From: Microbacterium helvum
Lineage (GTDB): Bacteria; Actinomycetota; Actinomycetes; Actinomycetales; Microbacteriaceae
NCBI RefSeq assembly: GCF_014779795.1
Contig: NZ_JACXZS010000002.1
Coordinates: 310,001 to 374,000 of the forward strand
Reading direction: 5' to 3'
Length of the DNA: 64,000 nucleotides
The translations under genes and the position numbers were made by a program. The notes under the pieces were generated by a model that ran no database searches, was not told the DNA's origin, and saw nothing but the letters and a program-made list of their open reading frames with translations. Shown here piece by piece: positions 58,118 to 62,062 of the stretch (its first letter is position 1; every line of letters begins with the position of its first letter).

Positions 58118-58287
58118 AATGTTCCATCGTAATCGGGGTGCCCGACACCCTCGCGCAGACACGCGTCGCCCGGGCGGGCACGTACGCGCTGAGCGAAATG
58201 TCGGCGGTATGCGGCATTCTCGGATGCTCGGCGTGGTTGTATTTCATGACCGGCAACGACGTTCTACGTATACGAGGAGGCACCGAG

Positions 58288-58500
58288 ATGACCACGACAC
58301 CCACTGAGACCGCCGCCGTCCTCGAGTACCGCCTCACGGCCATGGACCGCTGCGACTCCTGCGGCGCCCAGGCCTACATCGCGGCCGAGGTCAACGGCAC
58401 CGAGATGCTCTTCTGCGCCCACCACGGCCGCAAGTACGAAGAGAAGCTCCGCGCCATCGCCACGTCGTGGCACGACGAGACGGCACGCCTCTCGGAGTGA
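58288..58500 (+). CDS. DUF7455 small zinc-ribbon-like protein
   Basis: 70 residues from ATG, behind CGAGGAGG. The sequence has a CxxC (DRCDSCGAQAYIAAEV) and a CAHHGRKYEEKL motif, together a C-C-C-H set likely to bind zinc. The N-terminal 15 residues are flexible. Small proteins of this family (DUF7455) are conserved and highly expressed across actinobacteria near sigA; the role is unknown. The 170 bases upstream hold only its promoter region and that of parE. Confidence 0.92.
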   Translation: MTTTPTETAAVLEYRLTAMDRCDSCGAQAYIAAEVNGTEMLFCAHHGRKYEEKLRAIATSWHDETARLSE

Positions 58501-58515: not shown

Positions 58516-59556
58516 TCACCCTTCGTAGATGCGCGGCACCTGCGGGGACACGCGCACCGCGATCTCCTCGCCGATCGTGCCGATGAGCTCGGCGAGGTCG
58601 GTGCTGGACCCCTCTCCGCGTGCACCCGCGCCGAAGATCGTCACCGTGTCGCAGGCTGCGGCACCTGGCCACGTCTCGACGACCGAATGCGTGTCGCCGA
58701 TGGCTGTGAGCCGCCGAGCGCCGGCGGGCGAGCCGACCCGCGCGCCCTCGAGTGCGGACGGCAGCCCATGGAGCGCGCCGACCGCGACCTGCACCCCGTC
58801 CTCCGCGACACCGGTCACCGCTGCGTCCCACCGGGCGATGGGGCGCAGCCCCGACGCCTCGGCAGACGGGCCCCCTGCGGAGCGGATGCCGTAGCAGAAG
58901 GCCCCCACGCGCACCATGTCGTAGCGGAACTCGGGCCGCACGAATGAGGCTGCGCTGGCCGCCAGATGGCGGACAGACGGATGGATGCCGGCGGCCCCGG
59001 CCTCGCCGAGCGCCCGCTCGAACACGGCACGGGCGTCGTCGTCCTCGGCGTTCGAGGCCTCGGCGATGTGGCTCCAAACGCCCACGACGTCGATGATCCC
59101 GTCCGTCTGCAGCTGCGCGGCGCGCCGCACGAACGCGGGCCAGGCCTCGGGCCGCACGCCGTTGCGGTGCAGTCCCGTATCGATCTTGAGGTGGACGCGG
59201 ACGGTCGCGTGTGCCGCGCGTGCGGCATCCACCAGCTCTTCCAGAAGCCCGGCATCGCCGATGCCCAGGTCGAGATCCGCGGCGATCGCGGCGTCGAGGT
59301 CGTCGCGCGACGCGGCGATCCACGCGAAGATGCGGGGGCCGTCGCCGAGGACGGCGCGCACGGCGGCGCCCGTGCGGACGTCGAACGCGCCGAACCATCG
59401 CACCCCGGCAGCGGCGGCGGTGCGGACCACCGGCTCGAGGCCGTGCCCGTACGCGTCGTCCTTCACGACGAGCATCAGCTCCGCCGGCGCGACGGTCGAC
59501 CGCACCCGGTCGAGGTTCGCCGTGAGGGCCGCCAGATCCACGTGCAGCGCGGTCAC
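58516..59556 (-). CDS. alr: Alanine racemase-like protein keeping the PLP-lysine half of the active site
   Basis: 346 residues, about 20-30 shorter than usual. The TIM barrel is intact: PLP lysine K32 in VVKDDAYGHG (Y36 equals Tyr43 of the Geobacillus enzyme), K124/R131 in HLKIDTGLHRNG, H163, S201, R216 in DMVRVG, and the C-terminal tyrosine Y344 in VPRIY. The beta-domain is degenerate: where VSYG with the catalytic Tyr265 is expected there is VAVG (V259), there is no GYADG, and the VGRxxMD loop has become AIGDTHS. These are residues donated across the dimer. GTG start after GGAGG, overlapping the partner gene by 4 bases. See the adjoining gene and the finding. Confidence 0.88.
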   Translation of the reverse strand: MTALHVDLAALTANLDRVRSTVAPAELMLVVKDDAYGHGLEPVVRTAAAAGVRWFGAFDVRTGAAVRAVLGDGPRIFAWIAASRDDLDAAIAADLDLGIGDAGLLEELVDAARAAHATVRVHLKIDTGLHRNGVRPEAWPAFVRRAAQLQTDGIIDVVGVWSHIAEASNAEDDDARAVFERALGEAGAAGIHPSVRHLAASAASFVRPEFRYDMVRVGAFCYGIRSAGGPSAEASGLRPIARWDAAVTGVAEDGVQVAVGALHGLPSALEGARVGSPAGARRLTAIGDTHSVVETWPGAAACDTVTIFGAGARGEGSSTDLAELIGTIGEEIAVRVSPQVPRIYEG

Positions 59557-60230
59557 GGAGCCTCCTCCCTGATCGCTCTCAGGCCGATCGTCGCCACGAG
59601 TTCGGACGCCCGCAGCCCGGTCGCGGCGACCCAGTCCGCCAGCGACGGCTCCCCGGCTGCGGGATCGCCCAGGAACAGCACCTCGTCGCCGCGCCGGACG
59701 GCGGCATCCGCGATCTCCACGACGCACACATCCATGGCGACGCGGCCGACGATGGGGTGGCGCTCCCCCGCTGTCGCGACCTCGACGACACCGCCGAGCC
59801 CTCGCACGATGCCCTGCGCGTAGCCGCCCGTGACGAGCGCGACGCGCGTGTCGGCCGACGCCCGGAAGGCATAGCCGTACGAGACGCCCTCGCCCACGCG
59901 CAGGTCCTTGACCGACAGCACGGTGCCGGTGAGGCGGAGCGCCGGAGTGGTGCCGGGGTGCACGAGGCCGAAGAGCTCCGACGGCGCCAGCGAGCCGCTG
60001 TCGGCTGCGCCCGGGGCGAGCCCCTCGCCGGCGAGCACGCTCTGGACGAGCTGCGCACCGTGGCCCCAGGCATCCGCCTCGAGGACCGACGGAGAGAACG
60101 AATGGATGCCGCGCGCCTGAGCCGCTCGTGCGTTCGCGGCCAGCGCAGACCGCGAGATGCGTGCGACAGGAGCGCTGCGAGGCCGGGATCCTGGCGTCGA
60201 CATGTCGTGCCCAGGGATCGACGAACTCAC
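59553..60230 (-). CDS. Alanine racemase C-terminal domain protein keeping the trans half of the active site
   Basis: 225 residues. Residues 24-58 echo the racemase N-terminus (ARISRSALAANARAAQARG, VLEADAWGHG), but E51 replaces the PLP lysine and about 150 residues of the barrel are missing. From about residue 95 a complete alanine racemase C-terminal domain follows: Y118 in VSYGYAFRA (catalytic Tyr265'), Y137 in GGYAQG, R163, M166 and D167 in VGRVAMD. The closing PRxY motif is missing. The GTG at 60230 is chosen because TAGTCT lies 6 bases upstream, the leaderless layout seen elsewhere; an ATG at 60203 is the alternative. A decayed paralogue is the main rival view. Confidence 0.85.
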   Translation of the reverse strand: MSSSIPGHDMSTPGSRPRSAPVARISRSALAANARAAQARGIHSFSPSVLEADAWGHGAQLVQSVLAGEGLAPGAADSGSLAPSELFGLVHPGTTPALRLTGTVLSVKDLRVGEGVSYGYAFRASADTRVALVTGGYAQGIVRGLGGVVEVATAGERHPIVGRVAMDVCVVEIADAAVRRGDEVLFLGDPAAGEPSLADWVAATGLRASELVATIGLRAIREEAP

Positions 60231-60273: not shown

Positions 60274-61296
60274 ATGTCTTCTCAGGGCCTCGCCCTCTCG
60301 AACCGCCTTCGCTACCTCGCCTGGCGGATCCGCCGAATCGACGTCGGATCCGTGCTGGAACGCGCGAAAGAGACCGCTCACGAGCACGGCAAGTGGACGC
60401 CGGCGGTGGTGGTCGACATGCTCTGGTCGGCCGGATTCAAGCAGGTCGGCTTCCAGGACTACGTCGACTACGACTTCGCCATCCTGAACCGTGCCGAGCG
60501 GGCCACCTACATGACGCACCCGGTGTCGAACGAGCTGTCGCAGAAGTACGACCACCCCGACTACCGCGGCCTGTTCCAGGACAAGGTCGAGTTCGACCGC
60601 GCGTTCAGCGAGTTCCTCCGCCGTGACTGGATGGTGGTGGAGGACGGGAACGCCGACGCGGTGCGCGCGTTCGCCGAGAAGCACGGCACGATCGTCACCA
60701 AGGAGCCTGTCGGTCAGGCGGGCACGGGCGTGCACAGGTACCACGCTGCGGAGATCTCCGACTGGGATGCATTCCACCGCGGTCTGCTGGAGCGCGGCGA
60801 GCTGCTCATCGAAGAGGTCATCCGCCAGCACGCCGACCTCGCCGCCGTGTGCCCGGGCACGGTCAACACGACCCGCGTCACCGCGTTCTTCGACGGCGAA
60901 CGGACGCACATCCTCGCGATGGCGCAGAAGTTCGGGCGCGGCGCGGTCAGCGACCAGATGACGTTCGGCGGCTTCTACACGATGCTCGACGAGAACGGCC
61001 ACGCGGTCGGCCCCGGCTACGACTCGCACTCCCACGTGCACGTCACGCACCCCGACAGCGGGTTCGTGATCGCCGACTTCCAACTGCCGATGGTCGACGA
61101 GGTCAAGGCGTTCGTCGACCGGGTGGCGCGCGTCGTCCCGCAGGTCCAGTACGTGGGGTGGGACATCGTGGTCAGCCCCGACGGGCCCGTGCTGGTCGAG
61201 GGCAACTGGGGCGCCGGCGTGTACGAGAACAAGCCGAGCGTCACCGGCATCCGCACCGGTCACAAGCCGCGCTACCGCGCCGCCATCGGCTTCTGA
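60274..61296 (+). CDS. Sugar-transfer-associated ATP-grasp protein
   Basis: 340 residues from ATG (MSSQGLALSNRLRYLAWRIRR), with CGGAG 7 bases before. The protein has the ATP-grasp layout of the family linked to sugar-transfer genes: RDWMVVEDGNADAVRAFAEKHGTIVTKEPVGQAGTGVHRY (ATP lysine and glycine loop), LIEEVIRQHADLA (acidic hinge), VNTTRVTAFFDGE and VGWDIVVSPDGPVLVEGNWG (metal-binding Glu and Asn). Such enzymes join a carboxylate to an amine or other acceptor. The substrate is unknown; the neighbouring racemase-like genes hint at cell-wall amino acids. Confidence 0.85.
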   Translation: MSSQGLALSNRLRYLAWRIRRIDVGSVLERAKETAHEHGKWTPAVVVDMLWSAGFKQVGFQDYVDYDFAILNRAERATYMTHPVSNELSQKYDHPDYRGLFQDKVEFDRAFSEFLRRDWMVVEDGNADAVRAFAEKHGTIVTKEPVGQAGTGVHRYHAAEISDWDAFHRGLLERGELLIEEVIRQHADLAAVCPGTVNTTRVTAFFDGERTHILAMAQKFGRGAVSDQMTFGGFYTMLDENGHAVGPGYDSHSHVHVTHPDSGFVIADFQLPMVDEVKAFVDRVARVVPQVQYVGWDIVVSPDGPVLVEGNWGAGVYENKPSVTGIRTGHKPRYRAAIGF

Positions 61297-61366: not shown

Positions 61367-62058
61367 TCAGACCGATCGGACGACGCCGAGCGGCGTCGAC
61401 TGGTGGCCCTGACCGAGCGGGTTGTCTTTGAGGATCGAGACGAGCTGCTTCTCGCCGGCCTTGTCGAGCGTGGAGCCGAGGATGTTGCCGCCGAGGTCGT
61501 TGATGTCGACCACCGCCACCTCGGGCACGCCGCCGAGCAGCGACTTCAGATGCACGGCGACCTCGCGCGGGCGCTCGGGACCCAGCACGACCGCCTTGTT
61601 GTACGGCGGGATGGTGCCTGACGTCGGACCGTCGATCGCCCGCGCCTTGTCGCCGGCGATGCGGTAGAAGTCGCCCTTGCGCCCGAACAGCTTCGTGACC
61701 GCCGAGACCGCCGCGGCGAAGAGGATCCGGATCGTGCCGCACTCGCGCAGAGCCATCTCCATCGTCTCGGGCATGCCGAGGCCGATGCCGTGCGGCGTGC
61801 GCGTCACGTACTTCGAGAGGAAGAACGCGAGCTTGCGCGGCTTGATGTCCTCGACGAGGTATGAGCGGCCCTGCGTGATCGCGACGATCTTCTCCGTCAC
61901 GAACAGCAGGTCGCCTTCGCGCACCACGTCGGACGCGTACTCGCGGACGAAATCGTCGAGGTCGTCGCCGGGCATCACGACCCGCGTGCGGATCGGGATG
62001 CGCGCGAACGACGAACCTTCGACCTGGACGGTGAGCGCCTTGCCGGCGTTCGCCTCAC

Positions 62059-62062
<4 letters not shown>
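61367..62062 (-). CDS. CofE-like protein (F420-0:L-glutamate ligase family)
   Basis: 231 residues. [73 protein letters not shown] and [17 protein letters not shown] match the F420 gamma-glutamyl ligase (CofE) fold family. This stand-alone subgroup differs from FbiB, which carries an FMN domain, and its activity is not proven; no other F420 gene is in the window. GTG start overlapping the sigA stop by 4 bases, so it is translated from the sigA transcript. Confidence 0.8.

Follow-up and report, generated by a model that had tools for sequence, protein, structure and literature searches.

Alanine racemase (Alr; TIGR00492; structures 1sft, 1xfc, and 1vfh) is a homodimer with two active sites, each located across the dimer interface, and has a tyrosine at position 354. 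The VanT serine racemase, whose catalytic domain (4ecl) is an Alr relative with an altered residue 354, keeps both halves of the site in one chain and has a different substrate and different surrounding genes from the locus described here. The Lyr and Bar racemases (4dza and 4dyj) also adopt the Alr fold with Tyr354 replaced; they are homodimers in which both halves of the site belong to one chain. In PMC3485190, Tyr354 is described as gating alanine specificity, with Thr in its place in lysine racemase, Ala in Bar, and Asn in VanT, and Lyr and Bar are described as accepting cationic side chains. A further point of comparison is the MurT–GatD lipid II isoglutaminyl synthase (5n9m, 6gs2, and 6fqb), which has homologues neighboring our locus in many relatives. 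These homologues would act at the same D-Glu alpha-carboxyl, though their GatD-like component lacks the catalytic Cys. Within the open-licence PMC literature, searches on split or heterodimeric Alr, Orn/Dab racemases, type-B bridge genes, and MurT/GatD in Microbacterium turned up no account of an enzyme like the one below or of these genes.

Here, we describe a gene pair, A and B, within a window of 64,000 nucleotides from Microbacterium helvum. AB resembles Alr in its fold, its PLP lysine, its two-base residues, and a site predicted to span a dimer interface. It differs from Alr in being encoded by two genes, in its predicted single site, and in an Asp or Glu at position 354, where Lyr and Bar have Thr or Ala. 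The reading we favor, with reasonable though incomplete confidence, is that AB is an obligate one-site heterodimeric racemase, likely for a D-diamino acid (ornithine in Microbacterium) of the type-B peptidoglycan bridge, and that neighboring genes encode the ligases.

Division of the racemase active site between genes A and B

A first-pass annotation, made from the letters alone, had proposed two open reading frames with a four-base GTGA overlap, and both frames and the overlap were found as it described (Table 1). A matches PF01168 over residues 6–225 (6.4e-53), which corresponds to the full Alr barrel, or N-domain; its C-domain is a weak remnant (23.5 bits against a cut-off of 25) without the Tyr265 loop and the MD motif. 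B matches the Alr C-domain PF00842 (1.3e-28). The N-domain model gave no match to B, which has only a short N-terminal remnant without the PLP lysine or most of the barrel. Neither protein reaches the curated TIGR00492 cut-off of 168 bits (129.8 for A and 97.5 for B). AF2 models of the chains, which were folded singly and so inform each chain and not the A–B interface, are confident for A (pLDDT 93.5, pTM 0.90) and for B (pLDDT 87.5, pTM 0.82), and the best Foldseek matches of both are alanine racemases (TM 0.93 for A).

Table 1. Features of the racemase locus, in positions of the window.
Feature	Position	Strand	Basis or remark
Gene A, PLP-bearing subunit, 346 aa	58516..59556	-	ORF, profile matches, fold
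Gene B, partner subunit, 225 aa	59553..60230	-	ORF, profile matches, fold
GTGA overlap, 4 bases, B stop and A start	59553..59556	-	sequence
Codon of A K32 (PLP lysine, Lys39)	59461..59463	-	alignment
Codon of A E330 (true Tyr354 position)	58567..58569	-	alignment
Codon of B Y118 (catalytic Tyr265')	59877..59879	-	alignment
Codon of B M166 (Met312')	59733..59735	-	alignment
ATP-grasp protein PF14397, candidate bridge ligase	60274..61296	+	divergent from pair; start uncertain, ORF opens 60157
F420-0:gamma-glutamyl-ligase-like PF01996, candidate bridge ligase	61367..62062	-	in place of MurT/GatD

Between them the two proteins hold a complete set of Alr catalytic residues, with K39, Y43, R136, H166, S204, and R219 (Alr numbering) in A and Y265, Y284, R309, M312, and D313 in B. 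The half with the PLP lysine and the half with Tyr265 and Met312 are separate chains here, rather than parts of one chain. The annotation had listed seven cis residues in A, six of which stand (K32, Y36, R131, H163, S201, and R216); the seventh, Y344 at the PRIY end, is not Tyr354. It was right that Tyr265 is missing from A, but what it read as replacement by V259 is really a deletion of ~15–19 residues. Its residues in B (E51 in the place of the lysine, Y118, Y137, R163, M166, and D167) were all present as described.

We take Tyr354 to be the Tyr of the xINYE motif. The corresponding stretch of A reads T-I-G329-E330-E331, which puts E330, preceded by Gly, in place of the specificity tyrosine. 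This assignment agrees with PMC3485190 and PMC4517790, which locate Tyr354 in a C-terminal helix beside Asn353. A full-length Alr elsewhere in the genome had been anticipated, and a normal one with Tyr354 is present (G000:C32), followed by tsaE; the tsaE label of the gene after full-length alr was assigned from sequence. A DUF7455 gene (58138–58500, plus strand) stands between the racemase pair and parE in the window, as it does in nearly all loci read.

Conservation of the split across Microbacteriaceae

Searches combined with reading of loci placed the A/B pair in at least 36 of 120 family genomes, counting the window's own and one (L078) in which A is cut by a contig end. Order-wide, 13 of 297 evenly drawn genomes had a match at E 1e-55, a threshold that also misses diverged members of the family, and all 13 belong to the family. 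Loci were read because score cannot separate B from ordinary Alr C-domains: the ranges overlap, and the window's B scores like an Alr. Four genomes (G160, G175, G207, and G208) had one match by score, yet the pair was present once the locus was read.

We aligned 285 distinct Alr-family proteins from all loci fetched (315 minus 30 exact duplicates, with matches below 90 bits left out). Typing by K39, R219, Y265, and M312, columns that consequently hold by definition, gave 102 A-type proteins, 101 B-type proteins, 48 ordinary Alr, 18 full-length proteins with Asp or Glu at 354, and 8 with His354; the remainder were four halves of two fusions, two halves of a split pair in genome G077, and two fragments of no type. 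One apparent pair (L036, genome G009) was rejected because we interpret it as an ordinary Alr that a frameshift has divided into two frames, and its subtraction leaves 98 two-gene loci, 101 A-type proteins, and 100 B-type proteins. The full-length His354 proteins form a third type, found at L242–L246, L249, L251, and L087 and located elsewhere in several genomes.

In columns not used for typing, R136, H166, and S204 are kept in 102/102 A-type rows. R309 is present in 100/101 and Asp or Asn at 313 in 101/101 B-type rows, among which R136 occurs in three and H166 in one. No readable protein of the 285 mixes the A and B residue sets. The annotation had claimed that residues sort exactly into cis and trans sets, in a manner that random decay would not produce. 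The partition does recur in ~100 pairs (101 distinct A-type and 100 distinct B-type proteins), with the one misassigned residue, Tyr354, as the correction.

The two genes also stay together. Either type occurs at 104 loci, of which 99 contain both genes, three contain natural B–A fusions (L147, L194, and L195), and two (L078 and L175) are truncated by the end of a contig or stretch. In the 99 two-gene loci (98 without L036), B lies directly upstream of A on the same strand; the frames overlap in 97 of the 99, L036 counted, and the largest gap is 49 bases. Comparison of the window with M. jejuense and M. kyungheense, the named species closest to it (parE 97%), and of these two with each other gave dN/dS of 0.18–0.20 for A and 0.24–0.31 for B; for parE, the value between the window and the same two relatives is 0.04. 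A and B are under purifying selection. The proposal of an obligate heterodimer thus gains from the conserved split, the constant adjacency, and the fusions. Division at the level of sequence strongly supports an obligate one-site A–B heterodimer, with the assembly itself predicted.

Position 354 adds a feature that the annotation had missed and that supports its suggestion of a changed specificity. This residue is Asp or Glu in 99/99 A-type rows with data, three further rows having none. The same acids are found in the 18 tandem full-length proteins (Alr2), and the 48 ordinary Alr have Tyr (46) or Trp (2), with the caveat that these 18 and 48 were sorted by residue 354 itself and the A rows were not. 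The acid is Asp in Leifsonia, Herbiconiux, and Subtercola and Glu in Microbacterium, Curtobacterium, Frigoribacterium, and Frondihabitans. As a lead, the choice between Asp and Glu resembles a substrate signature.

Related racemases and alternative readings

In an N-domain tree (a quick one, with SH-aLRT support only), a branch with support of 97 separates the Tyr354 and His354 proteins, the fusion halves, and the G077 N-half from the A-type proteins and tandem Alr2, with the artefact L036 as the exception. The placement of A-type proteins and Alr2 on one side of this branch suggests that A may derive from an acid-354 homodimer. Full-length acid-354 Alr persists, mostly adjoining tsaE, in Curtobacterium, Frigoribacterium, Frondihabitans, Herbiconiux, and Subtercola; for Herbiconiux and Frondihabitans, the proteins come from genomes whose coordinates match those of the named genomes. 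In a C-domain tree, which has few columns and a bootstrap that had not settled, 98 B-type proteins form a cluster with the fusion halves (97/98), and two long B proteins (L064 and L069) are instead placed with Alr1 from tandem genomes (99/95).

Two other arrangements occur at the alr–tsaE locus. In G077, which also has a sigA–parE pair, this locus (L061, G077:C2:167500-179000) itself carries a split pair. The N-half keeps Tyr354 and groups with an Alr1 (83, SH-aLRT), the C-half groups with Alr2 (96/85), and we read the pair as a probable second, independent split. No ordinary Alr is among the matches listed for G077; a weaker threshold gave four matches, two of them not displayed. In G020 and G100, a fusion of ~600–630 aa (L079 and L092), in which the PLP half precedes the partner half, has Tyr354, adjoins tsaE, and is the only Alr match in each genome. 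Since the L061 pair and these fusions keep Tyr354 at the alr locus, split enzymes that probably make D-Ala exist.

These Tyr354 enzymes bear on whether AB could be a heterodimer and yet serve as a second racemase of alanine, or of another small amino acid, rather than of a diamino acid. Its fold and catalytic residues are those of Alr, and the G077 pair and the G020 and G100 fusions both retain the tyrosine and occupy the usual place of alr. AB, however, has Asp or Glu at 354 wherever the residue is readable and coexists with a normal Tyr354 Alr in the window's genome; most AB genomes have a second Alr match, ordinary by its score. AB is moreover found in some species only, although D-Ala is needed by all, and we consider an alanine racemase rather unlikely.

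We put lower still the chance that B pairs with or regulates the housekeeping Alr, leaving A as its own dimer of altered function. B retains a face able to pair with any Alr barrel, and the long B proteins L064 and L069 group with Alr1 of other genomes, but an A homodimer would have no second base, since A lacks Tyr265, and B consistently adjoins A or is fused to it, save at the two truncated loci. Nor do A and B look like the decaying remnants of a duplicated alr, even though catalytic residues are missing from both, half from each, and B falls well short of the length of Alr. Across many genera, ~100 distinct pairs retain these same halves, with dN/dS of ~0.2–0.3, and both proteins fold confidently; we reject decayed pseudogenes on conservation and dN/dS and regard this origin as exceedingly improbable.

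Neighboring ligases, wall chemistry, and the proposed function

The favored reading, a heterodimeric racemase for the type-B bridge, draws on the surroundings of the pair. Our interval count covers 175 loci, alr–tsaE ones excluded, of which 154 have sigA and parE in view; some species are counted twice among the 154 (e.g. L097/L217, L099/L199, and L098/L201). These 154 intervals contain MurT (72), an F420-ligase-like gene (81), or neither (1), never both, and AB is present in 92. MurT is nearly always accompanied by GatD, which was not called in L145 and L152, and the F420-ligase-like gene is usually accompanied by an ATP-grasp gene. The window's interval has the latter two genes, and a search of its genome for MurT_C gave no match.

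With S. aureus GatD as reference, the catalytic Cys is absent from the GatD-like proteins in 72/72 rows with data, its position being occupied by Gly (55), Ala (14), or Thr, Ser, and His (one each, the His row being L145, which aligns poorly); one further row has a gap. Examples include L045, L057, L117, L132, and L160. The scores of four homologues, two of MurT and two of GatD, fall far short of the NCBIfam cut-offs. AB is absent from 35 of the 72 MurT loci, the Cys-less GatD notwithstanding, so this feature marks the locus and not the racemase. In type-B peptidoglycan, the D-Glu alpha-carboxyl carries an amino acid rather than ammonia. A putatively glutaminase-dead GatD beside a ligase acting on this carboxyl would suit such a wall.

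The ATP-grasp protein covaries with AB, and its scores partly track phylogeny. Measured against the window's protein, the best score is at least 474 in 39 of 43 AB-positive F420-type Microbacterium loci, the other four giving 329–348. It is at most 432 in 19 of 21 AB-negative loci, the exceptions being M. schleiferi (509, with AB elsewhere) and L178 (none found).

Within Microbacterium, we searched 99 genomes and read 60 loci. A and B are both absent from the locus in 16 Microbacterium genomes, which have only one B-profile match each and in which a diverged pair elsewhere could be missed. The wall of the M. lacticum cluster presumably contains L-Lys. According to PMC10757982, the diamino acid of a Microbacterium species may be D-Orn, L-Lys, or Dab, and the distinction between D-Orn and L-Lys serves taxonomy; D-Orn is assigned by cluster to M. 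testaceum and M. indicum and to type strains in the M. liquefaciens cluster (with M. maritypicum), M. paulum is placed in the M. lacticum cluster, and M. gubbeenense, M. enclense, and M. radiodurans are said to depart from their clade. L-Lys is documented for M. imperiale, M. arborescens, M. enclense, and M. gubbeenense. A table of PMC10978784, with its columns as we interpret them, gives Orn for M. schleiferi.

The four species to which these sources assign D-Orn or Orn all have AB, namely M. testaceum, M. maritypicum, M. indicum, and, at another place, M. schleiferi; the M. testaceum, M. maritypicum, and M. schleiferi genomes may not be from type strains. M. paulum, the only L-Lys-cluster species in the named sample, lacks AB and has a single Alr match. 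A link between AB and wall type fits 5/5 Microbacterium species with some documentation, one of them via the chemistry of its cluster. Seven parE-clade neighbors of M. paulum also have no pair at the locus. On the parE tree, the AB label changes eight times against a shuffled mean of 21.9, and eight is too many because 'no' labels are wrong or uncertain for L105 (M. schleiferi) and L135, which have the pair elsewhere (L237 and L238), and for L211 (cut contig). Loss of AB is clustered on the tree, which consequently offers few independent tests. AB is also present in M. aoyamense, M. luticocti, M. yannicii, M. jejuense, M. kyungheense, M. resistens, and M. murale.

Records named Stenotrophomonas maltophilia P13 (L101) and Planococcus sp. 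APC 4015 (L135) contain Microbacterium-like sigA–parE loci, and these contigs are likely contamination or misnaming.

Outside Microbacterium, we take the walls of Agromyces, Cryobacterium, Plantibacter, and Salinibacterium to contain Dab. A single Alr match at E 1e-50 was found in Agromyces (four genomes), Cryobacterium (three), Plantibacter (one), and Salinibacterium xinjiangense (one). With these Dab genera showing a single match, the pair is not the sole route to a D-diamino acid, and we rejected a universal link between AB and D-diamino acids. Galbitalea, Mycetocola, Ruicaihuangia, and Yonghaparkia also have one Alr match each. In Leifsonia, Root4 has no pair at the locus and three others have it.

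Residue 354, the neighboring genes, and the distribution together suggest that AB most likely serves the type-B peptidoglycan bridge as a racemase of the D-ornithine type. In the mechanism we propose, A and B would form a 1:1 heterodimer of Alr fold with a single active site, in which A would hold PLP on K32 and supply the D-side base, and Y118 of B would be the L-side base, with B also contributing residues that bind the carboxylate of the substrate. Of the two mirror-image sites in the ancestral homodimer, the second would have been lost, and B could therefore shed most of its barrel. E330 of A stands where ordinary Alr has the tyrosine that confines it to alanine, which makes a diamino acid the most likely substrate, presumably ornithine in Microbacterium and Dab or Lys in relatives. 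The product would be the D-diamino acid of the type-B bridge, joined to the D-Glu alpha-carboxyl by the neighboring ligases, which would be the ATP-grasp and F420-ligase-like proteins here and MurT with a glutaminase-dead GatD elsewhere.

We see evenly balanced prospects for the broader proposition that a homodimer was dismantled more than once in one family and sometimes re-fused, and that the acid-354 enzyme and its neighbors are the racemase and ligases of the type-B bridge. Tandem copies, near-full-length lysine-less partners, short partners, and re-fusions would then form, in one family, a natural series from a symmetric to an asymmetric enzyme. The locus also offers concrete candidate genes, racemase and ligases, for the type-B peptidoglycan bridge. 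If the proposal is true, the neighbors in the sigA–parE interval would be the missing ligases that add an amino acid, not ammonia, to D-Glu.
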